This document shows positions 25,450 through 48,959 of a stretch of 64,000 bases of DNA, piece after piece (positions within the stretch are counted from its first letter, which is position 1; every line of letters starts with the position of its first letter). The position numbers and the translations under genes were made by a program. The stretch covers positions 496,001 through 560,000 of the forward strand of contig MCGO01000018.1 in NCBI GenBank assembly GCA_002104985.1, in the 5' to 3' direction. Origin of the DNA: Rhizoclosmatium globosum (Eukaryota; Chytridiomycota; Chytridiomycetes; Chytridiales; Chytriomycetaceae). Under the pieces are notes generated by a model. The model saw only the letters and a list, made by a program, of their open reading frames with translations, was not told where the DNA came from and searched no databases.

Positions 25450-25523
25450 TTGAGTTTGAGTTTGAGTTTGATTGAGAATTCAAGTGAAATGATTGAAAAC
25501 CAAAAGTTGCCTCTTATACCTAA

Positions 25524-25573
25524 ACGATTTGATTGCGTTGACTCATTGCGTTGAGTCAACGCAATCAAATCGT
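25524..25573. repeat. Perfect 22-bp inverted repeat with 6-nt spacer
   Basis: Arm ACGATTTGATTGCGTTGACT(CA) and its exact reverse complement flank TTGCGT. It lies between VHS-B and H2A. In unit 2 (30119-30152) only 12 bp per arm are kept. Confidence 0.9.
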
Positions 25574-25769
25574 GGGTCTCTCAAATTAAAGTGTCGGAAT
25601 TCCGTTTTGAATTGTGATGAGATAGAAGAAACGAACTCTTCACGGCTAACGACAATCACAAGCTGTATTTTGATATTAAACGCTTTATTCCAACAATTCA
25701 AATCCACAACAGTGACAACACCAAAAGTACAATCCAGCCAAACAATTAACAAGATAACACCCCTGCAGC

Positions 25770-26479
<710 letters not shown>

Positions 26480-26645
26480 TCAACTGGCCACATGTTCGGA
26501 CATGCCTTCAAAGCACACTTAACTGTCCTGTTGCTTCATCTTCTTACATGCAAAGCTCTGATTTCAATAAAACCAACGAATTGAACGAGTTTTATTGATT
26601 ATCCATGTGCACACGAAAACAAAGAACAGACGATATAATACATAG

Positions 26646-28035
26646 TTACTCCAGATCCACAAGATTCTCTCCGTTGCCTCTTTCTTCATTCTTGACTCTA
26701 GCCTCCTCACACTCCACACATCTCACACCATCCTTCGTCTTACACACCCGTTTCACTTGCATATGATTGTTCTGCACTTTATGCGCCACATACTTATCCA
26801 ACAACATATTCCCATTCTTTGCTACATCCATACCCGTCCCATTCAACAAAAGCTCCTTCAAAGCACGAGTGTCGACTTCATCCTTCTTTTTCGGGTCACG
26901 TCCAAATTTCGTTGAAAGGCTGCCAATGATTCCAGGGTTATGGCTTATATCCAGTAAACGGAGTCTCATCATTCCTCCGAATTCAGGTGGAAGTGGGCCG
27001 GTCAATTTGTTTCCTTGAAGGCGAAGTGTTGTCAGAGAAGTCAAGTGAATGAAGATGCAGGAATCGGACCACAGAGAAGGTTGTTGTTCAGCACAATGTG
27101 TTTGATGAAAGTAATGCTTGAGAGAGTGGCTGGGATTGGACCCGTAAATTTGTTGTGAGCGAGTGAAAGGGAAAAGAGGGACGTGAGATTTCTGATGGAC
27201 TCGGGAATACTTCCAGTGAACAAGTTGTGGTCAAGCAAAAGCGTCGTGAGGTTCATCCTCGTAAAGAGTGACGGCGTTTCATCGAGAGTACCACTCAGGT
27301 TATTGTTTGAAAGATCCAGCCACTTGATATTCGCGAACTTCCCAAAAATATCCGGAACACACCCCGAAAACTGATTATTCCCAAGTTTCAAGTCCATAAT
27401 ATTCACGCATTTGCCAAGCTCCCCAGGAATAGGACCCTCCAAACCACACGAATCCAACGACAGGTACTGAAGGTTTTTAAAGTTCCCAATGTCCGGCGAG
27501 AGAGGCCCGTTCAAGCGACTTCCATCGAGATCCAAGAACTTCAACTTTAGCAGTGTGTAGAATGAGGCTGGGAGCGGGGACTGCAGGTTCTTGATTATGA
27601 TTGAGGAGAGGAACTTTGTGAGTCCGAACGAGGCCGGCATCAAAAGCGGGTTTCCTGAAGAACATGTTTCTGCGTGGAAGTGGCAGACACGGCTGGGTGT
27701 CGGTGGTATTGACTATAGATTAGTATTCCTGTTTGGTTTGTTTGAAGAAAGAACCCAAAAACGTACGCTCGTTTCGCAATGTCAGCCGCGGCATCTTTCA
27801 TGTTTTGTGGCCAGCAGCAGAGCCAGTGTCCGATCGGTGCGTTGCGGAGTACTTTGCGGCGGACAAAGGCGCGGCGGAGGGTTGCTGCGTGAAGCGCCGA
27901 GAAGTACGGCCCGCATGCGAAGGCAATATTCCATACGCGACTGAGGCAACGGAGTACGAGCGTGTGCTTCTCTGGTACCAGCTTCAAGATCATGGTTACT
28001 AGCTCAGCAGGAAGGTTTCGGGAGTAGGTTGCCAT
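26646..28035 (-). CDS. F-box / leucine-rich repeat protein, unit 1 copy
   Basis: It starts at 28035 with an F-box-like segment (NLPAELVTMILKLVPEKH, then CLSRVWN). An intron with donor GTACGT near 27768 and acceptor CACCCAG near 27695 joins in frame to plant-type extracellular-like LRRs (LDLSNNNLSGTLDE, SIPESIRNLTSLFSLSLAHN, GPIPATLSSI). The end is Cys-containing and polar. A 1-nt loss near 27052 breaks the last LRR; the unit-2 copy is intact there but broken elsewhere. F-box LRR proteins are substrate receptors of SCF ubiquitin ligases. That role is inferred from architecture. Confidence 0.7.
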
Positions 28036-28103
28036 CTGACTTGGCTTTTTGACAGGTTGTTGCTGTTGTTTATTGTACTTTTATTTCCCATTTTATATTA
28101 AAA

Positions 28104-28854
28104 TTAAACTAAATGTTCAGGATGATGCGTTACGTTGTAATCAATATGAACAAAGGCTCTTTCAATTTCCTCCAATGATTCCAACACTACTTGCAACGAC
28201 TCGGCAATATCGTGTGCGGCATGGACCGTCGTTAATGGATCCACTACAATGTCAACTTCACAAAAGTATCCAACTCCAGACGAATACGCTCGTACTGTGT
28301 CAACTTGAAGGATATCAGGATGATGTGACACCGCAATATACGTTATTTTGTTCAACAAAGCAGGAGGCGCTGTCTCTCCAATGAATTTTTGAATGTTGAC
28401 GATGGCAGTCTGACTCCAGTTGATGAGAATCCAAAGGGCAATAATGATTCCTCCCATTGGATCAATCCACCATGCGATATGCTGTCCCATCAATGAAAGA
28501 ATAATACCCGTTGAGTTGAGAATGATGTCATTACGATGATCTTGTGCCAAAACGCCCGCCGATGGATACTTTCGCAGCAAATAGCAGTAGGCAAATAAAA
28601 AAGCCTTCACCGCTATTATATAAAAATGATTAATACCCACATCAACCCCTCAATAAAACAAAGAACATACTTATCGCAACACCAATACACCCCAAATTCA
28701 ACACAGTCAACGCCGTAGTATGATCCCCCGCCGCAATCGTCTTTGCAGCCTCAATAATCAACTCAAACGACAAAGCCCCCATAATACACGAAAACAGCGA
28801 TCTCGCTTTTTGGACGTATGCGACAGTCACCGCTGACGCCGAAACTGCCTCCAT
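28104..28854 (-). pseudogene. Mn-type CDF transporter, 5'-truncated by the duplication junction
   Basis: The C-terminal two thirds of a cation diffusion facilitator: DHRNDIILN (the DxxxD of TM5), the membrane span around WWIDPMGGIIIALWIL and the cytosolic dimer domain (HHPDILQVDTVRAY, GYFCEVDIVV, IERAFVHIDY). Upstream of about 28795 the sequence switches to VHS-A exon 2, so TM1-3 are missing. The unit-2 copy at 48960-50102 carries the proper N-terminus. Confidence 0.8.
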
Positions 28855-29010
28855 ATTGGGTTAGGAGTGCTACATTGCTGGTTAAAGTCTTGAATAACAA
28901 TGAAAAAAGTGGTGTAACTTACGAATGCTTCCATATTGAATGCCAGTTGGAGGCAGCTCATGGACATTCTGACTGGCCCACGCTTCGAACTTTTCCTTAA
29001 GGGTTGACAT
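28796..29010 (-). pseudogene. VHS-A 5' fragment at the duplication junction
   Basis: Exon 1 (from about 29010, MSTLKEKFEAWASQNVHELP), the intron and the beginning of exon 2 (YGGSFGVSGDCRI-like) of a VHS-A copy, cut at 28796 where the CDF gene of unit 1 begins. It marks the left end of unit 2. Confidence 0.75.
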
Positions 29011-29173
29011 ATTGTTTGTTAGATTCTTTGGATACTTTTCTTTCAGAAATGGATTGAGACAACAAGTTTTTGGCAAGCATTGCTTGATTTGAGATTGATT
29101 GATGTGAGTCGAACCAAACGGCAAGGTGGCACTTTTTATTTATTGCCACGAAAAGTGGGAAAAGCAAGCGTGT

Positions 29174-30044
29174 TCAAACAGCATGATACCCCTCCCGGTA
29201 TGTTTTGAATGTAAAGTCTCTGCCGTCCTCCATTTTCGATGCTCCCTCTTTAAAGAAGTCGGCAGCAGTCATAACATTCTTGCTTGCTCTGTTCCGCTCG
29301 ATTCTAGCAGGATCGATATTCTTCAATGACTCTTCTGTGAAGGGATACTTGGCACGCATCATTGAATCAAAGAAACGAGTGACTTTGTCAAGAGAGTCAA
29401 TTTGCGTGTTGATCAAGTCGTCTTAACATGATGGAAAAAGATATTAGCACAGTTGTTGGATATTTGTGGGATGTTTGATAGATTAGTTGTGAAACTCACA
29501 AGTTCTGTCAACCTCAACGGTCTGCCAACCAGCAACTAAACGCATGGCAAATTCGACATTCGCCTGAGACGTCTCCTTACGCTCAAGGAAGTTACGAAAC
29601 AGGTGCAGATAGATGGCCCAATTGTTCACAAAAACGATCCCACAGTTCTTGTACAGAATATCCAGTAAAACCAAGGTATGCATCACACGACGCTGGTCTG
29701 GACTGTAGAGCTTGTAATGGATTGCCCAGACGGCTTCGAGAGCACCCTTTCCCAATGATGCTTGGAGGTACGAGTTCTTGATCATGTTCACGATTTCAAA
29801 CGCAGCTTGAATGGAAACGCTTTCACGAGATGGGTCTGTGGCGATGATGACAGCGTCGGCAATGTCGCCTGTAGGGCGTCCTCGCATGTCACCTGCCAAG
29901 ACGAATCCATCTAGATTATGTTTGTCGATTCAGTTTGAGTTATCAACTTGCAGCCACATTACCGTTAAGTCTGAATCCTGTTTTGGGAAGGTTGTGCACA
30001 TCCTGGTGAATCCAAGCATTGAACTTGTCTTTAAGCGAAGTCAT
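29174..30044 (-). CDS. VHS-like domain protein, copy B' (unit 2)
   Basis: A nearly exact copy of the gene at 24581-25449, with the same two introns and an open frame. Visible changes include Arg to Lys in MMRAKYP, Asn to Asp/Glu in SKMEDG and Cys to Arg in AMRLVAG. The upstream region is also duplicated, so both copies may be expressed. Confidence 0.68.
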
Positions 30045-30348
30045 TTGAGTTTGAGTTTGAGTTTGATTGAGAATTCAAGTGAAATGATTGAAAACCAAAA
30101 GTTGCCTCTTATACCTAAACGATTTGATTGAGACTCAACGCAATCAAATCGTGGGTCTCTCAAATTAAAGTGTCGGAATTCCGTTTTGAATTGTGATGAG
30201 ATGGAAGAAACGAACTCTTTACGGCTAACGAAAATCACAAGCAGTATTTTGATATTAAACGCTTTATTCCAACAATTCAAATCCACAACAGTGACAACAC
30301 CAAAAGTACAATCCAGCCAAACAATTAACAAGATAACACCCCTGCAGC

Positions 30349-31805
<1,457 letters not shown>

Positions 31806-32322
31806 ATTGCCGAAACGTAAATTATCCAAACTCCTTGTCAGGAACTCCTGACATTGGCCCCTTCTTTGAAATCTTGGTCGTACCATCGACCAAGGCATCC
31901 TTCATTCTATGTGTAGTCTTGTCTTGTACTTGATCCTTGTTGGTTCTTGTTGCCCTCCTGGGTCAAGAACTCTTCCTAACTTGTGAACAGTGTGGGACTC
32001 ACACCCACTAAAACACAGAAACCCAGAACTGTGAAATGCATTATGCACGAACCCAAGATACTTGTTGTGGAAATCCTTGCTTGTGGAGACTTGGTCTTGT
32101 TGGCTTTAGATGAGCATGGTCTTCCTCCATCCTCCGCCTCCTTTCCACTTACTCCAACACCTCCTCCTCCGCTCAAACAAGTACTCAGTCCATGACCTGA
32201 GCCCTTGCCTGTGCACCCTAAATAAATAGCCTTGGGTAAGCAATCAACTCTCTGTTAATAACTCTTTGGGCAAGTACAAAGTCATGGCTCTTTTGTCACT
32301 GTCTGGTGTTCTGTCAATATTC
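31806..32322 (-). other. 3' untranslated region of the retrotransposon
   Basis: Between the integrase ORF stop and the 3' LTR. No long frame; a clear polypurine tract next to the LTR was not identified. Confidence 0.5.
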
Positions 32323-34997
32323 TTACTTCTTAAGCTGACTGAATTTGAGGGCACGCTGCTCTCTTGGTGTCAGGATTGGTTCTGGCACAACCACATCTTC
32401 TTGTTGTGTTTCAGTCAGGGCTTCTTCTGGAGCTGCTTCAGGCTCTGGATCAGCATTTTTGTTTTCCAAAACTCGGGGGTCATCCAAGGTCCTTGTTTCT
32501 GCAAAAACAGTATTGGCGCGTTCAGTCTCACGTTTCAGCCAATTCTGGTACTGTTTATAGGCTCTTGCCTTGGTTGTTTTCACAGACTCCCAATAGTCAG
32601 CAATCATCTGAGCAGGCATGTCAATCTCGTCCTGCCAAGAATCATGTTTTCTAGCAGCTGGCTTATTATCGCGTCCCATCCAACGTGTCTTATACCGGAA
32701 TCCTCTGGTTGCACTGCCATCTGCATCTTCAATTGAGTGGATTAAGAGAAGTGGACGTGTAATGTCTTCCTCAGTGAACTCTAGATCCCACTTCTTCAAC
32801 AAAAGAGGGTGCATTCCAAGTGCCTTCTTGGGCTCTCGGTTAGGTCGTTTTGAGTAAAGCACAGCATCACTCCATGCCTTATACTCTGTGGCATAGTCAT
32901 CTCCTGCTAACACTGCTGCATTCTCTGCACTGTCCACTGGCAATCTATTAACATATGGTCTGAGTCTACTTTCATGGCACTCTCTGACCATCAAGTCCAT
33001 GTTGTCAAAGTTTTCAACAACTTTATACCTTGAGGCTGCGGTTCCTGTAGATCTCTCTACTACTCGCACGGGTCCAATCCAACGGAAGAGGAACTTGGTT
33101 CCAACATTCATCTGTTGTGCAACATTCTTGAGTGGGACAGCTAACCAAGCCCGATCTCCTTTCTTGAACTCATGTGGGGCATTGTCAGTAGTCAGCGTTT
33201 TGGTAATTGCTTTCTTTTGCTCCTGGGCAACATGATCTCTGATGAACTGTTGGGCAATTGATTGTCCTTCTCTAATCTGGTCTTTGATGGCTTCGTTCAT
33301 GGCTTCAACTTCTTTTCTAGTGAGTTCTTTATTGAGCTGAATATTGAATGTCTTTAGGTTCAAAGAGCGGAGTAGGTTATTCCTCAACAGGTTTGTTCGC
33401 AGGTGATCTGTTGTCCTTGGTTTGAGTATCTTTCTTGGTATGATCACTCCACCTGGGGGTTTGGTAGGGTCCACAACTATTTGAGTTACAGTAACTCCTT
33501 TGTCACGTGTGACTCTTCTCAGTGTTCCATCACGCCCCAGGAAGATAGCTGGTAACTCAAAGGAGTCATCTATATCTTCAAGGCTATCACTACCAAATTG
33601 GTACATTCCTCTCCTTGCAAAGACCGTAACTATCCGTTGGGGTTTCCTGAAGTTGTTGAGTTTGAGTTCTCCAGAACTCCAGTCCAGTAAGTATGTTTTT
33701 CCAACCCTATCTATACGCTCTCCATTTTTCAGGTAAAAGCAAGAGGGAAATGGCTCTTTTGGTATATTCTTTGATATGAGTAAGGGGTCAAACTGTAAGT
33801 AAAGGATGTCCAAATCATCCTTCTCAAACAGGCGCTTGAGAGTCTCATGTTTGGGCACATCTGTTTCAACACCATACAGCAGCTTTCCCAAAGTCTTGCA
33901 CATGAATGGTGCTAGTCTTCTGAATTTTGCAATTCCAATTCTGGCCTCATGCTTGGTGTTTGGTTCAACTGTTTCATAGCTGACATTGCTCTCTAACAGG
34001 TCCAATTTGTGTTGGCTCTCAATTGCAGATTGTGCTTGGAGGGGACTGACTCCAACTAACAAATCAGCTGGTACTCTGGCTTCACGTCCAAACATTACAA
34101 AAAAAGGTGTGTCTTTTATTGAGGCATGGACCTGTGTGCGGTAGGCAAAAAGAACGTAAGGGAGGTATGCACTCCAATCATCATAGTCTGTTTTATCTAC
34201 ATAAGCGCGCAGCTTCTGGGACAGAGTTTTGATAAGTCTTTCGACTGGTCCATTGGCCTCTGGGCGGTAGGGGGCTGTGAATGTCTTCTCAAAGCCAAAT
34301 GCTCTACTCAGGTATTCCATGAGTTTACCATTGAACGGGGGACCATTGTCCGTGTGGATAAAGATAGGGATCCCATAGCGGCAAAATACTTGTTCTATCA
34401 GGATGCGAGCAACTGTCTCAGCCTTAGTGTCTGGGATTGGTAGTGCCTCTGCCCATTTTGAGAAGCTATCAACTAGGACAAGGATATACACATTTCCATC
34501 TGCGTCTGGTTTCAGGGGACCTACAAAATCTAACAAAATTGTTTCCCAAGGGTAATGTCCAATGGGTATTGGGTGGGTGTAACCTTGTTTTCGTATATTG
34601 TCTTTTGATTTCTGACATGTCTCACAAGAATCAATATGATTCTTTAAATCTGCAGCCATTTGTGGCCACCAAAATCTTTCTAACAGTCTGGGCATTACTT
34701 TTCCAAATCCAGCATGGCCAGAGTATAGGTCGTCATGTGCACAGTGGAGGACTTCGCGGCGCATTCCATCGGAACACAGAGGACAACTCTGGCTGGTAAG
34801 CGTCGGGCGGAAGATGATGAAGCATTAAATACCTTGTACAATAAATCATTACTTATGATCATTGACTTACTTTCTGCTGTCAGGGTTTTTGCTGTGGCTC
34901 CTTCAGGAATAACTCCTGCCTGCCTGAATTTCTTCAAAGGTCCAAGGTAGGCATCCTTTTCTTGTAATTCACAGATCCTTTTGGAGGAGAATCCCAT
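32323..34997 (-). CDS. Retrotransposon integrase with GPY/F and chromo-like tail
   Basis: The main frame is 34764-32323; a 1-nt break near 34770 links it to an upstream frame (34997) holding the linker from the EEP domain. The HHCC finger (H..H in LHCAHDDLYSGH, then C..C in SCETCQ) precedes the catalytic core with D79 (LLDFVGP), D139 (HTDNGPPF) and E175 (NGPVERL), a DD35E spacing. Around residue 560 a GPY/F-type motif occurs (FLFRWIGPVRVVER). Residues about 670-740 look like a chromodomain (FRYKTRWMG ... DSWQDE...MIADYW). Some 350 residues of unknown sequence lie between core and GPY/F. It inserts the cDNA into chromosomes; a chromo-like tail would steer it to modified histones. Confidence 0.9.
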
Positions 34998-35129
34998 TAA
35001 CTGGATGTATTCCGCTGAACTTTGATAGGTGTATTTCTCACTGTCATCATCGTCCCAGTTTGGTTTATCAAATTCAAGTCCGTGGGGGTAATAGGGTTCA
35101 TCTGCTACTTCAAGGAGGTAGTTGAAATT

Positions 35130-35995
35130 GATATTTATTTGGATTTTAAGGTGATCACTGAGGGGCTCCTGTTCTGGGGCTTCAACCCTCGTGTCATATG
35201 CTTTGACTGGTATTCTTTTATCAACCCATATGAATCAATACGCCAAAAAGGGTAGTGCTGTTGGTTTGGTGCCTTGATGAGCCATGTTGCTCCAGTTTGG
35301 CTGTATTTTTCACGGAAACTATCTGTGAACAATGTTTCAAGGGAGTTGAGCCACGTCTCTCGTCTGGAGTTGTGGTTGATGGGAACTGGTCAACAATGTC
35401 TGTCTCAAGACCTTGGAGGACATCAGTGTAGTTTCGGATAGTATTGAAGTCACCAACCAGGATGACATCACGTGTAATGCGAAGTTGTTCGCAATGGGTT
35501 TTAAGGTCATCTTGGAACTCAAGTTTGTAGTTGTGTCTATCAGCAGTCCTGTTACCACTTGGTAAGTATGTGTTAACAACTGTAAGGTTTGGTAAGTGGA
35601 GGTTGGTGATCCTTCCTTCACTTGAATGTTTTGGGTTTCCAGGCATGTGGTTGTCAGAGTCTGATTCAAGTCCTTCAAACTTGCGCCAGAGTGTTAGGAC
35701 TCCGTAATGTCCTGTTCTGGGATCATTTAATTGGTGATTCCATTCTTTGAGCTTGTTCAGGTTTTCAATGAGTTGTACTGATTTCCTGTCTGTTCCCAGT
35801 CTTGTTTCTTGGAGGCAGATTACACTGCTTTTGAAGGACTGCAGGAAATGCTCAAGTAATTGTGGTTGGTCTTCTTGTTTTCTGGACAGGTTATTCTGTC
35901 CCGCGTACTTGTTGAGAAGGCCCCGGAGGCCATTGATATTCCAACTTGTAATGTTTAAAGTGGGGTAGGAATCTTTTATTGTTTCTGCTCTTCAT
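35130..35995 (-). CDS. EEP-family (ExoIII/APE-like) nuclease domain inside pol
   Basis: Reading the minus strand gives the ordered EEP motifs: LNITSWNINGLRG (metal/phosphate Asn), VICLQETRLG (catalytic Glu), GHYGVLTLW, EGRITNLHLP, VVNTYLPSGN (Tyr), VILVGDFNTI (Asp and Asn), FWRID (Asp) and PLSDHLKI (Asp-His pair). The length of about 270 residues is a complete domain. Three or four 1-nt breaks occur (about 35350, 35230 and near the start). It sits between RNase H and the integrase finger, and its 3' end reads straight into the integrase linker. In non-LTR retrotransposons this domain precedes RT; here no LINE RT accompanies it. I know of no standard Ty3 element with this layout. Confidence 0.85.
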
Positions 35996-36103
35996 TTGTT
36001 TGGAAATGCTTTGGCTTATTTCTTGATAAGTCTTTCACAGATTGGATTCTGTCCACCTTTTTCTTTGAGTTCCATTTAAGGATGTGTTTTCCTACTTTCT
36101 TTA

Positions 36104-36616
36104 TCAATCCTTCAATGATAGCTCCATCGCGTTTCTGTCTATCTTCAATGCAAGAGTGAACGTTTGTAGGTTCAAGTAGATTGATTCAACTTCTTGGTCA
36201 TTTTGACCATTCTCCCCGTTATTTTGATGGAAATGTGTTCCAATGTGGACTTTTTCTGTCTCGCGTTTGTCGATGTTGTCCTGGCGGAAGTTGATTCTTG
36301 AAAGTGAATCAGCTACAACCTGAGCTGTTCCAGCTACGTGGACAAGTGTGATATCATAGTCTTGAAGTGCGTAACACCATCGTGCAAATCTTCCAGTCAG
36401 TTCACCATTTTTGAAAAGTGGTAGAAGGGCAATATGGTCTGTCTCTATTCGGACAGGTTTATTTATAAGGTAACCAGCAAAAGTGTCAACACTCCATACA
36501 ACGGCAAGGCCTTCTCTGTCCGTATTGCTATATCTTTGCTCTACACTGGTCAGTGTTCGAGAAATAAATGCAACAGGTTTTCTGTCGCGGACGTTCTTTG
36601 GGTCATACGTGTACAT
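36104..36616 (-). CDS. Retrotransposon RNase H
   Basis: Continues the RT ORF after a 1-nt break at about 36610 (ECDASGTSIGAA in one frame, YTYDPKNVRDRKPVAF in the next). Contains the catalytic Asp of ECDASG, the Glu region NTDREGLAVVW, TDHIALLPLF and VADSLSR, the usual Ty3 RNase H order. It degrades the RNA strand during reverse transcription. Past residue 130 the frame runs into a linker toward the EEP domain and stops at 36104. Confidence 0.88.
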   Translation of the reverse strand: MYTYDPKNVRDRKPVAFISRTLTSVEQRYSNTDREGLAVVWSVDTFAGYLINKPVRIETDHIALLPLFKNGELTGRFARWCYALQDYDITLVHVAGTAQVVADSLSRINFRQDNIDKRETEKVHIGTHFHQNNGENGQNDQEVESIYLNLQTFTLALKIDRNAMELSLKD

Positions 36617-39600
36617 GCAGCTCCAATTGAGGTTCCTGATGCGTCACATTCAATAAGGAGATGTGAGTCTTTATCTGGTTCAACTAGGAGTTGGTCATTG
36701 CGTAATTGGTTTCTTAGGATTTGAAACGCTTTCTCGCGTTCCTCTGACCAAATGAAAGGGTGGTCTGTTCTAAGTAATTCATAAAGTGGTTTAGCAGTTT
36801 CAGAGAAATTACGGAGGAAACGTCTGAAGTATGAGGTGAAACCAATGAATCTCTGTAGGTCTTTGACGTTTTTGGGGCGTGGCCAGTTCTCAAGAGCTGC
36901 CATTTTCTTGGGATCTTTTCTGAGTCCTTCTTTTGAGATGACATGGCCTAGGAAAGGTAAAGACGTGAATAGTAAGTTGCATTTCTTGGGTTTGACTTTT
37001 AGATTGAATTCGTGGAAACGTCCAAAGACCATATCTAAGTATTCAAAGTGGGAGTCTAAATCCTCGCTGTAGATTACAACGTCGTCTATATAAACAAGGC
37101 AATGTACCCACTTGAGTCCAGCAAGGACAAGATCTATCATTCGTTGGAACGTACTTGGTGAATTTACCAATCCAAATGGCATACAATTCCATTCGTAAAG
37201 TCCGGCAGAGCTTACAAAAGCTGTCTTGTGTCTGTCTTCTTCTGCGATGGGTACTTGCCAGAATCCACTCAGTAAGTCTACTGAACTGAAATATGCGTGT
37301 CCAGCCAGTTTCTCAAAAATAAGGGCAATATTTGGTATAGGATACTTGTCAATGATTGAAATTGCGTTTAGTTTTCTATAATCAACACAGAAGCGCCAAC
37401 TACCGTCTGACTTTTTGGCCAGAACGACAGGTGCTGCATACTGTGATCGAGAGCGTCGAATAACATTGTTTTCAAGCATATCCTTAATGTGTGATCTAAT
37501 AATTTCTGCTCTTGCCATTCCTTCTGGGTACGGGTTTGTGTGGGGTGGTTTTGCACCGTCTTTCAAGGGGATAGTGTGTGGGGGAACAAATTGTGTACCT
37601 GTTACAACTCCTGGTCTGAAGATATCTGCCCATTTTTCTATGATCGAGCGTAGTTTCCTGAGTGCCTCAGCGCCGTGTAATTGTACAATATGTTCCTTGG
37701 GTATTTGGTTCCAAATATCTTCAATAGTAACATTCTTTTCTGGAGGGAAATAGTCCATTTTATCTTCTTTTGATGTGTCCCTCTCCCAACCATAGTTGGG
37801 TATGTCGTCCGGTTCAGTATTCATGGTGTATTTCTTGTAGAACTCGTTTGAGAAGGTTGCATTCTTAAAAGCGGTGCCTCGCTCGCGTTTTGCGCGTGGT
37901 TTCCTATATTTCTTTCCTTTGTGACGTGGCGTCCAAGGGTGCATTTTGGGTAGGTCCTCAAGAGGGTCATAATATAGGTCAAAGATATCATCTTCTTCGG
38001 ATTGCTTAAATATGTCGTTTATTGTTGCATCTCTTGTTGAAATGCTTTCGTTGTCGTTGAAGTACAATTCATAGGACTCGTCTACGTCTCCGTCGACAAA
38101 TTCGAAGAATTCTTCATCACTTTCTAAATTACTTTCTCCATAATTTTGGTTGATAGCTGCACCCATCATGATATCATTCTGCAATGGTGATTGTTGCGGG
38201 TTCGGGAGAGGTTGTTGTGTCAGGTTTGGTGAACCTAGCTTCTCATAGAATGATTCAAGATCCGACGGGTTGTGTGCATTCACTAACAATGCAAAGTCTT
38301 GTGCAAGCTTGTCATCTTCGGAAATCTCCGTTGGTACTTCTAATATTGGTAAGTCTCCGGCTTCTGTGTCCGTTAGGAACGCTACTGTTGTTCCTACCCT
38401 TAGCGTAAGAGGTTTTGATCCTAAATACGTTATTTGTAATGGCACAGGTCCTTTTGCGATATCTTTGAAGTCGAATACTGTTGATGCTACATGTACTGAC
38501 TTGTCGCCGAGGCCGGAGGACCCGTTGATTGTACACGTTGTGATTTCTGTGTCCGGAATTTTCGATGCTTGGACTTTTACAGTGTGTGTGTGGTTTGGTT
38601 GGAGGATAGTTGTATTGCAAAGGGTTAGTGGTATATTCTCCGTTCTTTTATTGAGGTTTGAAAGCTTCTCCGTTTGGGATTCAGGGTAATCAACGTAAGA
38701 ATATAGCGGTGTTTTTAGTGTTATGTGTGGTTTACTTGGTGACTTCCAGTAAAACATATCGTCTTCGAAGGAAATCGTCGCTTTCAAAGTTTTCATTTCT
38801 GGTGTTCCGATGATTATGTCTTCTGGCATATCTTGTACTACAGTGAAACGCGTCATAAAGCCCAGAGTATGTGGCGTGTATTGTCCCGGCAGTAGTCTCA
38901 TGTAACAGAATCCGATAATTCTTTGTTTTCCCGTTACTCCTCTGTTGAATGCTGGTCGATCGAGCTTGATTATCTTAGGTGGGTTAACTAATTGGTCTAA
39001 AAATGTCATAGTTACAACCGAGTGATTGCTTCCAGTGTCCTGCATAAGTCGGTTGATGAAAACTCCGTGAACCCATCCAGATATCCTTGCAACAGTGTAC
39101 ATGCGTTCGCTTGGCTTCGGCATACGTGTGTCTGACGTGAGTCTGTTGCTGATGCTCCTTTCGACATCTGAGGTTGGTAGTTGTACGGCACGATTCTTGT
39201 GGATTTTTTGCACGTCTGCGTTGTATTCCAATTTTGTTACACGATTCAGTACGGTGAGTCGCCGTCTTGGTTTCGGTTTCGTGCCTGTTTTTATGGCGGA
39301 TTTCGGAACAGAGTTGCTCAGGTCTGGTTTGTCCGTCGGTTGTTGGTGTGCAGTGGTCGTTTTATTGTTCAATTCGTTTTGGTTGATATTGATATTAAAA
39401 GTGAATGGAGTTGAATCCTTTTTATTCTCAAGTGCACTAGAAGTAAAAGTAGAGTCATTTTTTATGGGATTTATAGTTTCGGCAGCTTGATTCGGTTTTG
39501 TTATATCAAATGCGTGTTTGACGAGTCTATTATCAATGAGTTGTATTAGTTGATTCAGATCAATGTTTTGGGGTGGTGATACCGTTTCTCCAGATACGTC

Positions 39601-39990
39601 CTTTATCTGCGAGTTGAAATAGGTGGTCATGTCAGTGACTTCATCTAGGGATAACGATGATATACTGCTTAACTGTTTTTCTTGGGTCATTTCGAGCCAT
39701 TCCTTGAACTTCTTTTGGTTCTTGAAGTAATGGTCGATATCACTAGCGGAGGGGCATTCCTTGGCAAAGTGACCATTTCTTCCACATTTGTAGCAGCTAA
39801 GTTGTTTGCGATCAATGCCGTGTTGTTGAAGCATTGTGTAAAGTCTTTCTAAGTCTTCTTCATCTGTGGAGTAGTTTGTAGTAGGGCGTCGGTCTCTACT
39901 GTCAGAGCGGCGGTTGTCACGGTTGAAGTCTCGTTCGCGTTGGTCACGTTGTTCGCGGATTTGGTCACGTTTCTGCTTCGCAATAACTGG
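36550..39990 (-). CDS. Pol: zinc knuckle, aspartic protease and reverse transcriptase
   Basis: An intact frame of 1094 codons from 39834 to 36550. In the same frame upstream (to about 39990) is an Arg/Asp-rich stretch. CCHC knuckle at residues 14-27 (CYKCGRNGHFAKEC). Aspartic protease motif DTGSN at 266. The RT has PYPEGMARAE, FCVDYRKLNAISIIDKYPIP, LLSGFWQVP, FGLVNSPSTFQRMID and the active-site YIDD near residue 914, then the thumb (KNVKDLQRFIGFTSYFRRF) typical of Ty3/Gypsy. About 400 residues between protease and RT are acidic and of unknown role. The long open frame argues for a recently active element. Confidence 0.95.
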   Translation of the reverse strand, partial: PVIAKQKRDQIREQRDQRERDFNRDNRRSDSRDRRPTTNYSTDEEDLERLYTMLQQHGIDRKQLSCYKCGRNGHFAKECPSASDIDHYFKNQKKFKEWLEMTQEKQLSSISSLSLDEVTDMTTYFNSQIKDVSGETVSPPQNIDLNQLIQLIDNRLVKHAFDITKPNQAAETINPIKNDSTFTSSALENKKDSTPFTFNININQNELNNKTTTAHQQPTDKPDLSNSVPKSAIKTGTKPKPRRRLTVLNRVTKLEYNADVQKIHKNRAVQLPTSDVERSISNRLTSDTRMPKPSERMYTVARISGWVHGVFINRLMQDTGSNHSVVTMTFLDQLVNPPKIIKLDRPAFNRGVTGKQRIIGFCYMRLLPGQYTPHTLGFMTRFTVVQDMPEDIIIGTPEMKTLKATISFEDDMFYWKSPSKPHITLKTPLYSYVDYPESQTEKLSNLNKRTENIPLTLCNTTILQPNHTHTVKVQASKIPDTEITTCTINGSSGLGDKSVHVASTVFDFKDIAKGPVPLQITYLGSKPLTLRVGTTVAFLTDTEAGDLPILEVPTEISEDDKLAQDFALLVNAHNPSDLESFYEKLGSPNLTQQPLPNPQQSPLQNDIMMGAAINQNYGESNLESDEEFFEFVDGDVDESYELYFNDNESISTRDATINDIFKQSEEDDIFDLYYDPLEDLPKMHPWTPRHKGKKYRKPRAKRERGTAFKNATFSNEFYKKYTMNTEPDDIPNYGWERDTSKEDKMDYFPPEKNVTIEDIWNQIPKEHIVQLHGAEALRKLRSIIEKWADIFRPGVVTGTQFVPPHTIPLKDGAKPPHTNPYPEGMARAEIIRSHIKDMLENNVIRRSRSQYAAPVVLAKKSDGSWRFCVDYRKLNAISIIDKYPIPNIALIFEKLAGHAYFSSVDLLSGFWQVPIAEEDRHKTAFVSSAGLYEWNCMPFGLVNSPSTFQRMIDLVLAGLKWVHCLVYIDDVVIYSEDLDSHFEYLDMVFGRFHEFNLKVKPKKCNLLFTSLPFLGHVISKEGLRKDPKKMAALENWPRPKNVKDLQRFIGFTSYFRRFLRNFSETAKPLYELLRTDHPFIWSEEREKAFQILRNQLRNDQLLVEPDKDSHLLIECDASGTSIGAACTRMTQRTSATENLLHLFLEH

Positions 39991-41730
39991 TCCAAGATCG
40001 CTTCAATATCAGTTTCCTTGGTGGTTGTATGACGTTTTGATGTTTTAAGCGCCTTAGCAATGTCTTCCAATGATACGACTGGGTCTTCGAAGTTGGTTAT
40101 GGTTTGGCGATTCGGAACTTTGACTTCAGTTCCATCATACAAGTCGTCTTTGGCTTGGCAACTTGGAGCATTCTTCAAAAAGCCACGTTTGAGTTCCAGG
40201 AGGGTACGCTGGTGTTCAGACGGGAGAGCCTTGTTCATACTTTTGATATTGACGGCTTCGAGGTCTGGGTCAGAAGAATCCCATTTGAAGTCATCAATTT
40301 CTGCGCCCATTTCGCGGAGCTTCTTATTGTCAAGAAACCAATAAGTCAATCGGGCGTGTGCGTCCTTCCAGGAAACAGCACGTTGAAGGTCCTTCTTGAA
40401 CTGTTTTGCGGACTGATCGCCTTCGATATTTCCTCGTCCGAGGGCATTAAGGAATGCCACGTCCGAGATGAAAGGGAGTCCAGTTCCAACGTTAGTATCT
40501 CTTGCTTCAGCAACATCATTCCACCATCTCGCAGCAGTCTTACTCTCCAAGTAGGGAAGGTCCGTAGTGATTGATGCAATCACGTCCTTCTCGTTCAGTG
40601 GTCTAGCAGTTCCAATAGCTTGATAAGCAACTACTGGGGGTTGCGGAGCTGGGTTGGCGACTTGAGGTGTTGGTGCAGTTACAGTTTGTTGAAGTGCTGC
40701 TACGTGAGTAGCTAGTTGGGCAGGAACTGGAATATGAGTAGCCTGGGTTTGTTGAACTGTACTCGTAACAGGATTAGCTGGTTGATTTGTGGCAATGTTG
40801 GTTGCCGGTGGGACAATGGTAGTCGTAGTTGGTACTCTCGGGGGTGCACTTGTAACTGTTGGCAATGTCGAAAAGCGGACTCCTTTGCCTACGGGTGTGT
40901 GATATGCAGAGTGCGGTACGGTGATAGAATCTGTTTCGTCTTCTGGTACACTTGCGTTTGAAGAAGCACTTGTTGCAGACAGTGGCGGGGTGTGTCGGCG
41001 CTGCTGTTTGGAAAAGCTCCAATAACTTGGGCACCTAGCAAACGTTCCTTCGCGTTTCTAATGCCAATTTGGTGCTCCAACAAAGTATCCGTTGGTCTAT
41101 TTCTTGCAAAAGCATACGCTTCATCGAACGTATTGAATCCTTTCACAGTCAGTACTTGGCCATCTTCGAACTTGAGGGACAAGCGCAGGGCTTCATTAAC
41201 AACTTCGCGGACAGTGGGTTCTTGGTTCTGGTCCTCAATGAAATCCTTGAACTGGTCCGGGAAATTGAGACGGAGGGCGTCGGCAAGGACGGCAATTGTC
41301 TGAGGTTGAAGTTCTTCTTCGTTAGGGGTGGCGAACTTGTTGTTGAGTACGAGGATGGTACGATCGTATAGTTTGATAGTCGTACGCGCGAGGCTAAGTT
41401 TGTAATGGATTAATATGAGAGTAGTAATAGCTAGGACTAGGGTAATGGTGATGAGTAATGGGACATTGTGTACCTGGAGCTGCCACTGTTGGCGCGAGTA
41501 GTTCTCTTGGACATTTTTAGTGGCTTCTGCTGTCGGTGTTGTCAATAGAAGTAGAGCCAATGTTTTTTGGAAGGAAAAAACGTTAAGATAATTTTGGATT
41601 TCTCTCTTAGTGCTGGTCCAAATGAGAATTTGGGAAAGTAAATTTATTTGGAGCAGTAGGGGATAATAAATGATGTAATCGCTCTCTAATTTTGGATAAA
41701 TCGATGTCTGAATACTAAGTGAGTTGTTAT
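39849..41730 (-). CDS. Gag polyprotein with N-terminal transmembrane segment
   Basis: Two frames: 41896-40889 and 40865-39849, linked by a 1-nt break near 41000. The upstream part holds a strong membrane span (VPLLITITLVLAITTLILIHY) followed by a helical domain (TIAVLADALRLNFPDQFKDFI; GFNTFDEAYAFARN). A Pro/Thr/Val-rich linker leads to a capsid-like region (ESKTAARWWNDVAEARD, SAKQFKKDLQRAVSWKDAHARLTYW). The nucleocapsid knuckle is in the overlapping pol frame, reached by a +1/-1 shift near 39990, which could be a programmed Gag-Pol shift or an indel. A membrane span ahead of the capsid region is unusual for Gag. The start codon is uncertain. Confidence 0.65.
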
Positions 41731-42869
41731 AGGTTGTTGGTGATGTCATAGATATCACTTCCATCATCCATACTGAGGGAATCAGAAAGCATGACATCCA
41801 AGTTTCCTGGGATTGTCGCGGGGACTCCAGGAGCCTGTGTGGTGATTGACGCGCAGTGCTAGTTTGGTCTGGGTAATCTGAGCCGGCAGTGGACAAGATA
41901 TCGTCAAGTTGGTCGCTGATTGTGTTGTAGAGCTCCTGATCAGCCTTGTACTTTCATAAGCGTTGAGAATAGGCTTGTATACATTTTCGCGTTCGACTGG
42001 GGTGAGGCGTTCAATTTCAACTGTTCTGTACAGACCGAAACTGTTCTTGATTTGCTCGTTGGACGTGTAGAAGGCAAGAGCGGTTGGAACGCTGACGATT
42101 CTTCCCAACCATGGTGCACGTTCTGTACAATTGATTTTGTTAGACTATTCATACGATTGATAAAGCAGCAGATCATTTCACCTTCGTCTCTGCGCTGTTC
42201 ATAAGCAATGGCGCTTGTGATATACTCCTCTTGTCTCATGGCACGTCTGAGGTTAGTGGCCTCTTTTCTTGCCATTTCGTCAATATGACTACTCTTGAGG
42301 GTGTTGAACAACGCCATGAATTTCTTTTTCTTCGAGAGGTGTGCTTCGGCGTTGATACCGGCAGCATTCAATCTTGTGTTGAGTTGAGCGGCGCGATCCA
42401 AGTGATCTAGGTGAGTTTGATAACATTTAATATTGTTGTATTCCCATTGGGTAGGGGTAGGGCCATGGTGTGGGCCGGTTTGATCTCCGTGTCCAAGGAC
42501 AGGAGTCAAAGCAAAAGAAACAAAGACAAGAATAAAAAGGTACAAACATGGGAGCCTGTTGATAGCCCCAGAACCAGACTGGGCAGTCGTGTGTAGGATT
42601 TTGGCGTTCTTGGCCTTCTGGCGAGCTCTATTCTTGGTGATCTTCGCATGATAAGCTTTCAATGCTCTTGCTCGGGCTTCTGGGTCTTGCTTATCCGAGA
42701 TTTCGGCCGGTGGTTCGGGGGAAGACTCGTTGTTCAGGGGAATGAACTCGTCAGGGCCCGGTGGAGTGACTGGTTCAACGGGGCGCTTCTTGAACGAAGG
42801 CAGTTGGCGGTGTCCATTTCCGATCATGTCGGTTGGGGAAATAGTTGGAGTACTCGGGAGATTGTTCAT
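41730..42869 (-). CDS. Retrotransposon membrane protein (type II-like), function unknown
   Basis: It starts at 42869 with a Pro-rich, then basic cytosolic region of about 105 residues, one membrane span (CLYLFILVFVSFALTPVLG) and an ectodomain of about 200 residues with conserved-looking helices and Cys (NIKCYQTHLDH; EGEMICCFINRM). A break near 42110 moves the frame to TALAFYTSNEQIKNSFG and NLTIS (a potential N-glycosylation site); a further break leads to an acidic end and stop near 41730. It precedes gag, not follows pol as env does, so env homology is not claimed. Confidence 0.55.
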
Positions 42870-43371
42870 TGTTTTCGGAGTAATTTAAATGAGCCCTTTT
42901 TCTTTTCGGGTAGCCTCCTTTATCTCCATTTTTGCGTTTCCTCCCTTGGTGGCCTGATCTTTTTTCCGGTTTTGGGGTTTTGAGTGTTAATGGACTTTTC
43001 GGGCCGTCTTTGTCCTTCTTCTACTATAGTCCACTTGCAATAATTACGGAGTTCATTCGTAGTTTATTTTGAATAAGGGAGATATATCAAATGAAGGGGT
43101 TTTAATTGTAGCTGTGGTGAATACAGTTTGAGGATGTTTCGAAGCACTCAATCTCTTTCTTCATTGTCCCAATGCTCAAATTCAGAGAAGTCCGATTCTT
43201 CAAACTGATCCATGCAGGTACAGTTATATTCTGATACGAATTCTTGTTTGGCAGTTAATTGCAGCGATCATCGTCGACAGGAGGGTAAACACCGTTCGGG
43301 AAAGTTCGTCGAGAGGGTCCGAAACCCTTGCACGAGTGGGCCGGGCCTGGGGGGATGGATCTCGTCTGGTC
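42870..43371 (-). other. Spacer between accessory ORFs of the element
   Basis: No long frame on the coding strand; includes a GC-rich segment with tracts around 43260-43400. Confidence 0.4.
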
Positions 43372-44019
43372 TTAGTAATAGTGCTTTTGGTACGCACGGC
43401 CGGGACGGTCGGAGGGGGAGAGTTCGTCTGAGTTTCGGCTCAGATCTGGAGGATTCGATCCATGCTGACTGTATGGTACCATTGCGGCTGGTTCTTTGCC
43501 CTTAGTTGCGGCCTTGTTGGTTGTATTCGGGAACGCTTTGAAGAAATCCGGATTGGCCCATTCCAACATCTCGTCCGTCTTGATCAAGTGGGGTTCGTTC
43601 GAGTTCTTAAATGACAAGTCCAGCTGTTGGAGGAATTTACCATTGGATTTCCGCACTTTTGAATGTGCTCCTTATAGGCACGGGCCTTGCAATTAGCACG
43701 GGTTGCGTCGCAGAAAGTAACTGCCACAATAGTCGTGGCATTTCTGGACAGCATGACCGAACATGCCAGAACAGAACCCACAACGAGGTTTGTAGGTAAG
43801 CTCAGAGTAGCCAATCCCGACTTGGTTGGATCCGCTGCCAGAATTGGTGGGGCGGATGTTGCTCTCCTTCCGGGGCGTAGTCTGGAGGATTGCGTCCTTC
43901 ATGTACTCAAATGGGGTAGTATTCTTCTCCATTGCGAAAGAGTTTTGGGGGATATTTTTGAATGTTCCTGGTGGGGAATTTTCGGATCTTGTTTTTTCCG
44001 GCGGCACCGCAGTGTTCAC
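43372..44019 (-). CDS. Retrotransposon accessory Cys/His zinc-finger ORF
   Basis: It starts at 44019. After about 75 polar residues two Cys/His clusters follow across frame breaks: CGFCSGMFGHAVQKC (C-x2-C-x5-H-x4-C, one residue longer than a retroviral knuckle) and CDATRANCKARAYKEHIQKC. A helical region (QQLDLSFKNSNEPHLIKTDE) completes it, to a stop at 43372. This is probably a nucleic-acid-binding accessory protein. The frame needs two 1-nt corrections. Confidence 0.5.
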
Positions 44020-44102
44020 CTCTTCCTCAACTGCTCACTGTGTTGATTGAATCAACATTTTTAAATGGTGAAAAGTTGTATTTTGGTTTATTCCGCTGTT
44101 CA

Positions 44103-44551
44103 CTATAAGTAATGAATGAAGCGGACTTTGAACTCGTCCACCGCTCCTTCCACAAAGGCTCTAATTAGAGCTCGTCTAAAGTTTTCATTGTTTTTGACGT
44201 ATTCCAGTGGGCGGCAGATGTCCCGGTGCTTGTTAGGTTGCCACTCAATCTCTGGCATCGGACCGAACAATATCGCGCATGCTTGCAACGCGCACAGTTA
44301 CGGAGTATCTTGTCTTCGCATTGTGCTTGGTCGCAATTGGGGTTCCAGCATCGTTCCATGTCTTGCGAGGCGATAATACCGATGATAAGTTCGTCGACAA
44401 TTGAAGGACCTCTGACTTGGAATGGGGTGGATCCGTATATCATGAAGTATGGCATATTGTTTTTTTTTGAGTAAAAAATTAAAGTGATAAAAGGAATCAT
44501 GTTTATTACCATCGAGGGAGTGGGAGGGAGTGATAGAAGTCTCTCCATCAT
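44103..44551 (-). CDS. Retrotransposon MYND-type zinc-finger ORF
   Basis: The frame from about 44460 (MIYGSTPFQVRGPSIVDELI) leads to CWNPNCDQAQCED, then the MYND core NCARCKHARYCSVRCQ and, after a 1-nt break near 44258, EWQPNKHRDICRPLEY, completing the C-C-C-C-C-C-H-C pattern with its Trp. A helical tail ends FKVRFIHYL and stops at 44103. MYND fingers normally recruit transcriptional or chromatin partners; its presence in a retrotransposon is unexpected. It is not a close copy of the MYND gene at 11555-12995. Confidence 0.7.
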
Positions 44552-44738
44552 AATACATACAGTTACCTAGTTACGTTCGTATTCAATAAAAGCGACTCCT
44601 AAAGCGACTCGATTGGGGTTGGATTGTTCCGGTATTGTTTTCGTCGTCGAATGAGTTTACGTGAACGCTTGTCGATATCTGAATACAGGACTGAGTGAGT
44701 GAACTATACAAAGGAGTTGGGTAGAGGCGTGGTACGCT

Positions 44739-44970
44739 GCTATTGCTCGTCCACCGACGAGTCAATAGCACGAAAAGAGCTCTCCACCGAGAGATCTTCC
44801 GCACCCGAGTAAGTATATGCACCTTCTCCCCCACCGGAGAGTAAGATACGTGAAGAGAGCTCTCCACCGAGAGATCTTCTATACTCAGAGAGGAGAGGGA
44901 ATGGTACGTTGCCACAGCTCATCCCACCGATGAGTCAATAGCGCGAAGAGAGCTCTCCACCGAGAGATCT
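44739..44970 (-). repeat. Array of six hairpins with a shared CACC/GGTG loop
   Basis: Hairpins at 44739-44769, 44776-44797, 44823-44842, 44856-44877, 44918-44934 and 44949-44970. All present CCACC (GGTGG in element RNA) as the apical loop. Three share AGAGCTCTC/GAGAGATCT stems, while the first and fifth have CTCGTC/GACGAG versus CTCATC/GATGAG, a compensatory change. The array lies in the leader, upstream of all ORFs, suggesting a structured RNA signal such as packaging, dimerisation or translation control. Confidence 0.7.
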
Positions 44971-45004
44971 TCCGCACCCGAGAGAGAGGGGGTGGGTGAT
45001 AGTC

Positions 45005-46108
45005 CCTTCATTATAATGTCCAGTTCGTCGACAGTGAGAGGTAGTCCAGTAGGGGGTAGCCGTGGGGATAGTTTGAGTGTGAATAGACAGTTAGATCAGT
45101 GTCGTAGGCGAGGGTGAACTGACCTGACGAATCATTCGACGTTGGCTTCGTTGGTGGTTCCACGCTGTTCCGTCGGGCATCGTTATTCGGAGTTGGTCGT
45201 CGTTCTGGTTTCGTCGTTGAACTGGTGGTTCAGTAGGTCAGATATGATGAAAGGTGAGGGGCTCTCCGTTCATACGTGGCTCCGGTTTGAAGTCTTCGTT
45301 TCTGCAGCCCGCAACGGCGAGGCGTTGCGGCAACGTAACAGGGACGTTGGTGGTGGGGTGAGGCACGTAGTTCGTAAGGTGAGTTCCTGTATGGTTCGAG
45401 AGCGAGTTAAGAACTAGAGACAGCTTCAAGAACTTACAAGCGGCTTTGAGCTTCGTAGTATCGCCGTAGTTCCGAGTTGTCGTGGTTTCGACGTCGTCGC
45501 TCGAACAGTCGTCGGTTTCGTTGGTTTTGAGTGAAGAAAAACGAATAGAGTTTTGGATGGGAGGAAGGTACCTTCTTTCGAATCTGATTTCGTCGTTCGT
45601 TGGGCCCTTGTTCTCGTCGCTCCAATGTCTACTGGAGTTTAAGCCGGTGTTTGGGATATAAGTGCCGCAGGCCATACAGCAGAAACCAGACAACGGCACC
45701 AGTTTGCGACGGAGAGCGAGAGGATTTCGAGCAACTTTCGACAGTTGGGTACTTTTGACAAGAGGTTTTCAAAGGTGTTCGGGATCCGTCCCGCCCAACA
45801 AACAAACAACGGAGGTTTCGAAAGACGAAGGAGCAGCGTTTCCTTCCCTCGGGTGGGTTCGAGTGAATCCTAATATAGTTATATTGAGTTTGGTGCTCTC
45901 CCGAGCTTTATTATACAGTGATCATACGATTAACAATAATGAAATGAAGGCTATGGGTGGCCAAAGCTCTGGGTTGAGCTATCACTGGATAAACCAGCGA
46001 TCTTCGCAACGAGTTGCGAGAAAGTGAATGAGTGTTCACATATACTTTACCATGTCTAGTAGAGGTCACAGCGGCCATCATCCCCATAATGAGGTGAGGC
46101 CCCCAAAA
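45005..46108 (-). other. 5' leader of the retrotransposon, weak ORF 45699-45238
   Basis: Begins at the 5' LTR edge (TTTTGGGGGCCTCACC on the element strand, a possible offset primer-binding site beginning TGG). A minus-strand frame 45699-45238 starts MPLSGFCCMACGTYIP and has CC..C, but no recognisable domain. Otherwise no coding signal. Confidence 0.4.
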
Positions 46109-47149
46109 TGTCACGACTTGCGGGGTCTTTTCGCCGGTATCTTCCCGGCAGCGCTCCTCATCCCTCGCTTGTAGCCGCCAATTTCACCAGAACTGTAAAC
46201 AACAGTTCCGATGGCCCCGGACGTCGCCACTACAAGCCCATGAGGACTCGAGCACTATACCTGCATCAACATCTAAAAGAGAAAACTAACAGTAATGATG
46301 GGATAGAAACATAAAACAACAATAAAGAAAGATAACAACGGCACCGCCTCGCACTCACCTTTACACTCACCTTGCAATCTGTTGTTGGTTCTCCTAACCA
46401 CAAAACTTGCCATCTCGATGACCACTAGAGCACCATCGAGACTTGCACTTGCACCACCTTGCTCTCGTTCCGGTCCGTTGTGATCCACCCGAATATCCTT
46501 TCCTGGGACCGCGGTACTTGCTACTCAGTTGGTTGATCTTTACACATTCCCAACTGGACAGCTTGAATCGCTTGCTCATCGGCACCAAGGAGCTTGACCA
46601 GTCGCCTCTGTATATCCGTTTTAGGGACCCGCGCCTTGGTTTCTCCTAGCCCAGAGTCTGGAGAGAGTGGTGTAGTACTGGCTTGCATACCACTGGTTGG
46701 GGGTGCTTGTTAGGATTTCACACACCGGTGTTCTATCCCCTTGACCATGGAGCCGTGGTTGGGCCGGTTCCCAAGGGTACTATCCCTCCGTTCGGGAAAG
46801 AGCCCCATGGTGAAAAGAGGTTCCTGGCCTGGATTGACTTGCTTTCCCAGCGAACTTGCAACTGTTGTCTGGCAGCAACCTGGTTGGGTTCTAGGGACGG
46901 GTTGTCCTCAGCCGGCATCCAGACTTGAATCGATCATGTCCTAATGATCCACAGACAAGTGGCCTCTGGAATGCCTCAAAGAGACCTGTTGGCTCTACAG
47001 TCTACTGTTGTCTTTTTGAGGGAACTTTCTGTTTTATTTTTGCAAAACCAATTTGCTATCAAGTAACATGTCCTGACACTCAAAGAAATTGAGTAGCCAC
47101 TCAAATAAGAAAGGTTTGGCTTCCTGTACCCCTTCCGACAAACTTCGAA
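46109..47149 (-). repeat. 5' LTR (element orientation)
   Basis: Partner of 30763-31805. Visible differences: one T/C substitution near 46568 and a 2-nt deletion near 46722. It should contain the promoter for the minus-strand transcript. Confidence 0.93.
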
Positions 47150-47312
47150 GAGTCCGGCGCGGGACGATCGGGACTTGGCTCCGGCCTTGGCCTTTCCGCT
47201 GCTCTTTCCTTTTCCTCCTAAAGAGAGAGAGTGTGTGAAGAGCGGTGAGTTTGGGGTTGCTGAAGAGGCAAAGAGAGAGAGGATGGCGTGACGAACCTGC
47301 CATTTTTTGGAT
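47150..47312 (-). pseudogene. Histone H2A, unit 2, 5' part
   Basis: H2A exon 1 and the start of exon 2 ([20 protein letters not shown]), resuming at GAGTCCGGCG beyond the LTR. The portion coding for [15 protein letters not shown] (about 100 bp of unit 1, 26176-26277) is missing from both sides of the insertion, so this H2A copy cannot be functional. Confidence 0.9.
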
Positions 47313-48892: not shown

Positions 48893-48959
48893 CTGACTTG
48901 GCTTTTTGACAGGTTGTTGCTGTTGTTTATTGACTTTTATTTCCCATTTTTTAATATAA

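Follow-up and report, generated by a model that had tools for sequence, protein, structure and literature searches.

EEP nucleases are well known from LINEs and from base-excision repair, and the defining enzyme of Ty3/Gypsy elements is their integrase. The non-LTR element Dualen reportedly carries two endonucleases. KnitGypsy-Dnmt3 is a Ty3/Gypsy element with a captured Dnmt3 in its pol ORF, which is under purifying selection (PMC5890265), an orchid Gypsy possesses a captured AlkB in a separate ORF (PMC9289625), and a second RNase H is known from some Gypsy elements (PMC5348765). In Helentrons, an AP-EN domain was added to the main protein of the mobile element (PMC6431247), and a fungal study mentions, for its Figure S1, complex elements with many additional domains (PMC3248453). 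The Kuafuorterviruses are LTR elements for which Exo_endo_phos is mentioned as sporadic and perhaps host-derived (PMC11673190), and a fungal survey assigns PF03372 to the LINE order (PMC10799480). The combination described here, a conserved EEP within Ty3/Gypsy pol, appears undescribed; we could not find it in the literature searched, which leaves out most subscription journals and Repbase Reports.

The window analysed is a stretch of 64,000 nucleotides of the chytrid Rhizoclosmatium globosum (assembly GCA_002104985.1, contig MCGO01000018.1, positions 496,001 to 560,000). It harbours an LTR element on the minus strand, from about 30763 to 47149 (Table 1), with 99.7% identity between the 5' and 3' LTR across 1043 aligned bp. 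The element possesses Gypsy-type reverse transcriptase (RT) and RNase H (RH) upstream of the integrase (IN), LTRs, a primer binding site and a polypurine tract, and is a Ty3/Gypsy-like LTR retrotransposon. No Pfam match at E 0.001 was obtained for the region past the DDE core of the integrase. Over a few hundred residues past this core (window 32323-34764), the families of clade 1, to which the window copy belongs as a member of family A, are about 30-45% identical in pieces.

Table 1. Features of the element and of its insertion site, in window coordinates.
Feature	Position	Strand	Remarks
102 bp of the first (uninterrupted) repeat copy	26176..26277		no counterpart beside the element; repeat comparison
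3' LTR	30763..31853	-	1091 bp; start TGTCAGG, end GTGACA
Polypurine tract AAAGAAGGGG	31858..31867	-	4 nt ahead of the 3' LTR
Integrase: H2C2 zinc finger, DDE core, long C-terminal part	32323..34764	-	PF17921 (H2C2) E 6e-18; PF00665 (rve) E 2e-13; downstream of EEP
Open piece with SDH and EEP-to-integrase linker	34698..35234	-	motif reading by frame
EEP (ExoIII/APE1-type) nuclease domain	~35955 to 35125	-	between RNase H and integrase; three frames in the window copy
Open piece with SWNINGLR, QETR, NTYLPSG, GDFN	35224..35991	-	PF03372 match
RNase H, Ty3/Gypsy type	36107..36643	-	PF17917 E 3e-22; upstream of EEP
Zinc knuckle, reverse transcriptase, start of RNase H	36550..39834	-	PF00098, PF00078, PF17919
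gag-like ORF	39849..40865	-	inferred from position; no Pfam match
Primer binding site	46094..46105	-	12 nt complementary to tRNA-Pro(UGG) plus CCA; matched by eye
5' LTR	46109..47149	-	outer end short by ~48 bp; full ends known from other copies

The first-pass annotation had placed a full-length ExoIII/APE-type nuclease domain at 35130..35995, between RNase H and integrase of this element, with the motifs SWNINGLR, QETR, NTYLPSG, GDFN, WRID and SDH readable in order. All six motifs are present in that order on the minus strand, and the position within a Ty3/Gypsy-like pol is confirmed by the PF17917 match upstream and the H2C2 and rve matches downstream; the extent of the domain is refined to about 35125-35955. 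The Pfam profile search with PF03372, which had been proposed as a check, was positive on the first EEP piece (35224-35991; E 1.2e-10, 41.9 bits, cut-off 24.5), and FWRID lies within the open piece 35138-35389. A full-length readable domain is found in other copies, such as the open one on contig C257; the window copy itself is frameshifted over three frames, and 35130-35995 read in a single frame contains 21 stops. The match in the window is far beyond chance, because full-length open versions are present in other copies. The linker between EEP and integrase can be aligned along most of its extent in the clade-1 families outside A and B, at about 25-31% identity.

The search of the window's own genome (56.9 Mb) revealed at least 47 matches to the EEP piece of the window and at least 86 to the integrase. 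Locus L039 on contig C43 encodes gag, RT, RH, EEP and IN in an uninterrupted frame of 2862 aa; the domains matched along it are, in this order, CCHC, RT, both RNase H models, EEP, H2C2 and rve. L039 also possesses a DTG motif at residue 528, which we take to be aspartic-protease-like, and has no Pfam protease match. In family A, the six EEP motifs are distributed over one frame in C257, two in C62 and three in the window copy.

For a census of what precedes each integrase on its strand, all 60 H2C2 places, all 65 RNase H places and 88 EEP places (83 plus 5 from further searches) were used, leaving out second pieces of the same EEP place and one weak TIGR00633 match (C379). The RT was judged in the loci read, not by genome-wide search. 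An EEP was found at most 1.5 kb upstream of the integrase at 41 of the 60 H2C2-integrase places and 1.9-3.4 kb upstream at seven; it was absent at 12, at one of them (C384:150520, family A) by deletion. RNase H lies upstream of the EEP at 39 of the 41 near places, and its match is missing at the other two (C124, C54). Among the seven far-upstream places, RNase H lies between EEP and integrase at four, and its match is missing at C146, C347 and C411. The EEP is N-terminal to the RT in the three far-upstream loci read (L040, L041, L058); in L058 RVT_1 was below the E 0.001 threshold, and the RT was judged from aligned catalytic acids. According to equal open-frame lengths, EEP, RH and IN share a frame at 19/41 near places, and EEP and IN at 5/7 far ones. 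Carriers of the EEP are most of the Ty3/Gypsy-like elements detected in this genome. The 40 EEP places out of 88 without a linked integrase include LINEs (L061-L064, L066), pieces of split matches, and L065 (C113:178800-179700). The latter is a probable intron-bearing fragment of a cellular AP endonuclease of the host, with 45.9 bits to TIGR00633.

Decayed copies with stops within the EEP occur at C87, C135 and C55. A clean empty site in other copies, or a misassembled cellular gene, had been named beforehand as findings that would speak against the domain as part of the element. The sole EEP-less copy of family A, C384:150520, carries a deletion of 1172 bp (counterpart in C257, 84482-85655) that retains the first EEP bases, and is not a clean empty site. 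Misassembly is ruled out by the many loci and the single open frames. A nested LINE fragment, already considered unlikely in the first-pass annotation, is ruled out by the census and by the ExoIII/APE1 sequence affinity. The EEP is supported as a real, long-standing part of Ty3/Gypsy-like pol in this genome.

A nested insertion was observed at C384:126159-154529, where the two LTRs of a family-A element stand 27 kb apart. Between them, at C384:142-147 kb, lies a further EEP element of clade 1, probably of family F.

The alignment of EEP representatives showed invariant catalytic positions in six of six sequences of set A1 and six of six of set A2 (12/12 in total). The invariant residues are the Asn of WN, the Glu of QET, a Tyr, the Asp and Asn of DxN, the Asp of RxD, and the Asp and His of SDH; these are the known catalytic places of EEP nucleases, with roles as in APE1. 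EEPs of clade 1 also possess an insert near the domain N-terminus. In 16 of 16 elements (12 with an EEP, four without), RT, RNase H and integrase retain their catalytic acids, among them all four of RNase H and the DDE residues. In five pairs of elements, the EEP showed pS values of 0.79-0.86 (saturated) against pN values of 0.10-0.34, and pN of RT and IN in the same pairs was 0.05-0.32; raw pN/pS was used, NG86 dS being undefined in most pairs. The EEP is under purifying selection with strong constraint. In the A-B pair it evolves clearly faster (pN 0.18) than RT and IN (0.05 and 0.08), and in the other four pairs its pN is close to theirs.

Similarity searches separate this EEP from the LINE endonucleases of the same genome. 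With the NCBIfam model TIGR00633 (curated equivalog cut-off 99.05 bits), the EEP of L039 scored 136.5 bits, and the first EEP piece of the window copy, a fragment, scored 83.5 bits, below the cut-off. TIGR00633 matched at 67 genome places. Of these, 35 exceeded the cut-off, C411 doing so only together with its neighbours in frame, and each of the 35 lies in an integrase-bearing element. The best place without a linked integrase reached 85.3 bits. Five of six clade-2 EEPs were over the cut-off (L041 below, at 70.1 bits), and none of three LINE EEPs. In a comparison with solved structures (PDB), all 51 rows obtained with L039 at E up to 0.001 were ExoIII/APE-type chains. For the clade-2 EEP profile, ExoIII/APE1 ranked at the top (E 3.5e-40), and L1 endonucleases followed only with E 0.002-0.003, closing the best 60 of 65 rows. 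The ranking was reversed for the EEP of L063, the one LINE of the same genome that was tried: its best match was an L1 endonuclease (E 3e-10), with ExoIII at 0.01. The EEP shares a frame with Gypsy RT/RH and integrase and is not closest to LINE endonucleases. Judged by sequence, it is of the cellular-repair (ExoIII/APE1) kind, not of the LINE kind.

Target duplications of 4 bp were found in seven of the eight insertions with both ends readable, which belong to families A and B and clade 2. In family A they were present in 4/4 (C384 gtgg, C257 gaac, C62 gtgg, and the solo LTR C109 ttct), and in the clade-2 family in 3/3 (C90:231-242 kb ctac, C387 gtag, C383 ttac). C130, of family B, has no target duplication, and the window copy stands outside this count, its outer 5' end being lost. 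In families A and B, the primer site TGGGGGCCTCAC follows the 5' LTR and is complementary to the end of the tRNA-Pro(UGG) gene plus CCA (matched by eye). Family B has LTRs with the primer site beside them, and a purine tract precedes the 3' LTR in family A. Together with the 4-bp duplications of 7/8 insertions, these features amount to the usual replication mode of LTR elements, with insertion by integrase.

The tRNA-Pro(UGG) acceptor pattern was detected at 42 genome places with a looser pattern, the first and stricter one having matched none. At the three loci read (L076-L078) it lies near a tRNA-Thr gene, and 39 further places carry it.

The clade-2 element at C90:231100-243200 (L072, L073) possesses LTRs of 482 bp that are 100% identical. 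Beside the LTRs of this family, neither a primer site of the tRNA 3'-end (TGG-type) nor a clear purine tract was seen, and the element may prime in an unusual way. A search for self-priming from the LTR, with starts among the 8 (family A) or 10 (clade 2) bases that follow it, yielded no complementarity of 8 bases or longer. For the C43 copy, a search of 84300-98600 revealed no LTRs.

Trees of RT, IN and EEP, built from elements of this genome and, for the EEP, four cellular references, all showed two groups. Clade 1 comprises families A-F, with the EEP between RH and IN. Clade 2 comprises the H elements, with the EEP in the same place, and the X elements, with the EEP before the RT. H and X group together in the RT+IN tree (100%), and joining either alone with clade 1 on RT+IN was rejected (p < 1e-40). 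Their EEPs also form one clade (91% and 94%) despite the different slots. Most simply, one EEP lineage would have changed place within clade 2, because H and X group together in both the RT+IN and the EEP trees. Two uptakes from related sources could also account for this pattern, the EEP tree holding four cellular references. The position of X_C146 differs between the trees: the EEP tree places it outside H, X_C368 and X_C301 (92-94%; monophyly of X, AU p 0.051), and on RT+IN this placement has AU p 0.022. Between clades 1 and 2, the EEP may have been taken up once or twice; the AU test rejected neither monophyly of the two EEP groups (p 0.335) nor, on RT+IN, a division into elements with and without an EEP (p 0.521). 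Scans of IMG/VR with both EEP alignments for relatives elsewhere confirmed 0/44 and 0/63 pattern matches, in a collection that may omit records near the window's genome.

The reading that we favour, with about even confidence, is that a cellular-type AP endonuclease/ExoIII domain was captured, became a standing part of pol in two Ty3/Gypsy-like lineages, is carried in the particle and acts on the cDNA. Replication itself is of the ordinary kind in this reading: cDNA is synthesised by RT and RNase H, in families A and B starting from a tRNA-Pro primer, and is inserted by the DDE integrase, which leaves a 4-bp duplication. The EEP would be packaged alongside RT and integrase, incise the cDNA at abasic sites and clean up 3' ends that are blocked or frayed, which would let cDNA made in the cytoplasm be completed and joined. 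The observed basis is the architecture, the intact catalytic residues, purifying selection, the cellular-repair affinity, integrase-type insertion, and related EEPs at two places of pol; catalysis and substrate are predicted from these sequences, and the cDNA, rather than RNA or target DNA, is our best guess for the latter. Retention of the EEP at two pol positions argues for an activity in trans in the particle and not for a step tied to one neighbouring domain. Copies of family A in which the EEP is broken (window, C62) or missing (C384:150520) have LTRs 99-100% identical to those of others, so the EEP need not act in cis for a copy to spread. This fits supply in trans and weakens a need of each copy for its own EEP. 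The missing duplication at C130 and the faster EEP of the A-B pair count against the favoured reading.

An activity on cDNA could also be of another kind. The EEP might trim linear cDNA at its 3' ends, removing in ExoIII-like 3' to 5' fashion the few bases that lie outside the LTRs, ahead of joining by integrase. Exonuclease activity at 3' ends is typical of ExoIII-type enzymes, and there are such extra bases: three between LTR and primer site in family A and one in family B, and four between polypurine tract and LTR in both. They are few, however, and differ between A and B (3 vs 1), the clade-2 termini show no matching pattern, and integrases normally do this step themselves. We consider trimming unlikely.

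Cutting of RNA in hybrids, by the RNase H activity of ExoIII-type enzymes, would assist the RNase H of the element or remove the tRNA primer. Such cutting is a known side activity of ExoIII, and an RNase H match lies upstream of the EEP in 39/41. All four catalytic acids of RNase H are complete in 16/16 elements, though, and the EEP stands far upstream of the integrase in 7/48 elements, before the RT in the three read. This makes RNA cutting quite improbable.

Nicking of target DNA by the EEP, as a second, integrase-independent route of insertion as in LINEs, is best considered together with the insertion of the window copy. A tandem repeat of several kb (window 25000-30762 and 47150-49643) is 97% identical between its copies, and the element interrupts the second one, within a gene that, read by eye, presumably encodes histone H2A. 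In the uninterrupted copy, 26175 matches the left flank and 26278 the right flank. Contig C87 shows the same flanks as the window element and so is, on its sequence, regarded as a duplicate of the window locus. We read the missing 102 bp, together with the loss of about 48 bp of LTR, as a deletion during or after insertion; the insertion may also have been integrase-independent. EEP nucleases do nick the target in LINEs, and the truncated 5' LTR with about 102 bp of target missing, as well as C130 without duplication, would suit such a route. It is opposed by the 4-bp duplications in 7/8 insertions, the intact DDE, the tRNA primer site of families A and B, and an affinity to cellular repair enzymes rather than LINE endonucleases, and we hold target nicking to be very unlikely. 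A link to LINE-type target-primed insertion, as raised in the first-pass annotation, is likewise not supported, the EEP being ExoIII/APE1-like, the DDE intact in 16/16, and 4-bp duplications (7/8) and the tRNA-Pro primer site (families A and B) present.

That a LINE fragment or cellular gene was inserted by chance or misassembly and has no function has a negligible chance of being true: the window copy is frameshifted and some copies are decayed (C87, C135, C55), but the EEP stands at 48/60 integrase places, with residues kept in 12/12, strong constraint and one uninterrupted frame.

The favoured reading of a particle-borne enzyme could be extended. The APE-type nuclease would be a core replication enzyme at two places of pol and would, in addition, allow integrase-free entry of cDNA into chromosomal ends that are broken or damaged; the truncated, target-deleting insertion in the window might record such an event. 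We regard this extension as a long shot.

In these lineages selection maintains both nuclease and integrase, the nuclease in either of two slots. This suggests that cDNA damage (abasic sites, blocked 3' ends) limits LTR elements, which can be tested. For annotation, PF03372 taken as a sign of LINEs in a mobile element misleads here, with 48 EEP places in integrase-bearing elements.

Compared with Ty3/Gypsy elements (Metaviridae), the elements of this genome are alike in the TG..CA ends of the LTRs, the 4-bp duplications, CCHC, the RT-RH-IN order, the integrase with H2C2 and DDE, and, in families A and B only, the tRNA-Pro primer site. They differ by the extra EEP, in the RH-IN gap or N-terminal to the RT, and by the long C-terminal part past the integrase core. 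ExoIII/APE1 AP endonucleases (TIGR00633) resemble the EEP in score, with 35 places over the cut-off, and in the catalytic residues kept, whereas here the domain is fused into pol instead of being a free-standing host gene, with an N-terminal insert in clade 1. The APE-type endonuclease of LINEs (L1-EN and kin) likewise represents the EEP superfamily in a retroelement; in contrast, the sequence here sides with repair enzymes, an integrase is present, and duplications are of 4 bp. KnitGypsy-Dnmt3 and the orchid Gypsy with AlkB captured other enzymes, a methyltransferase and an RNA demethylase, and Helentrons are rolling-circle DNA transposons and not retroelements with integrase. Exo_endo_phos in Kuafuorterviruses is described as sporadic, while the EEP of R. 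globosum was found at 48 of 60 integrase places.
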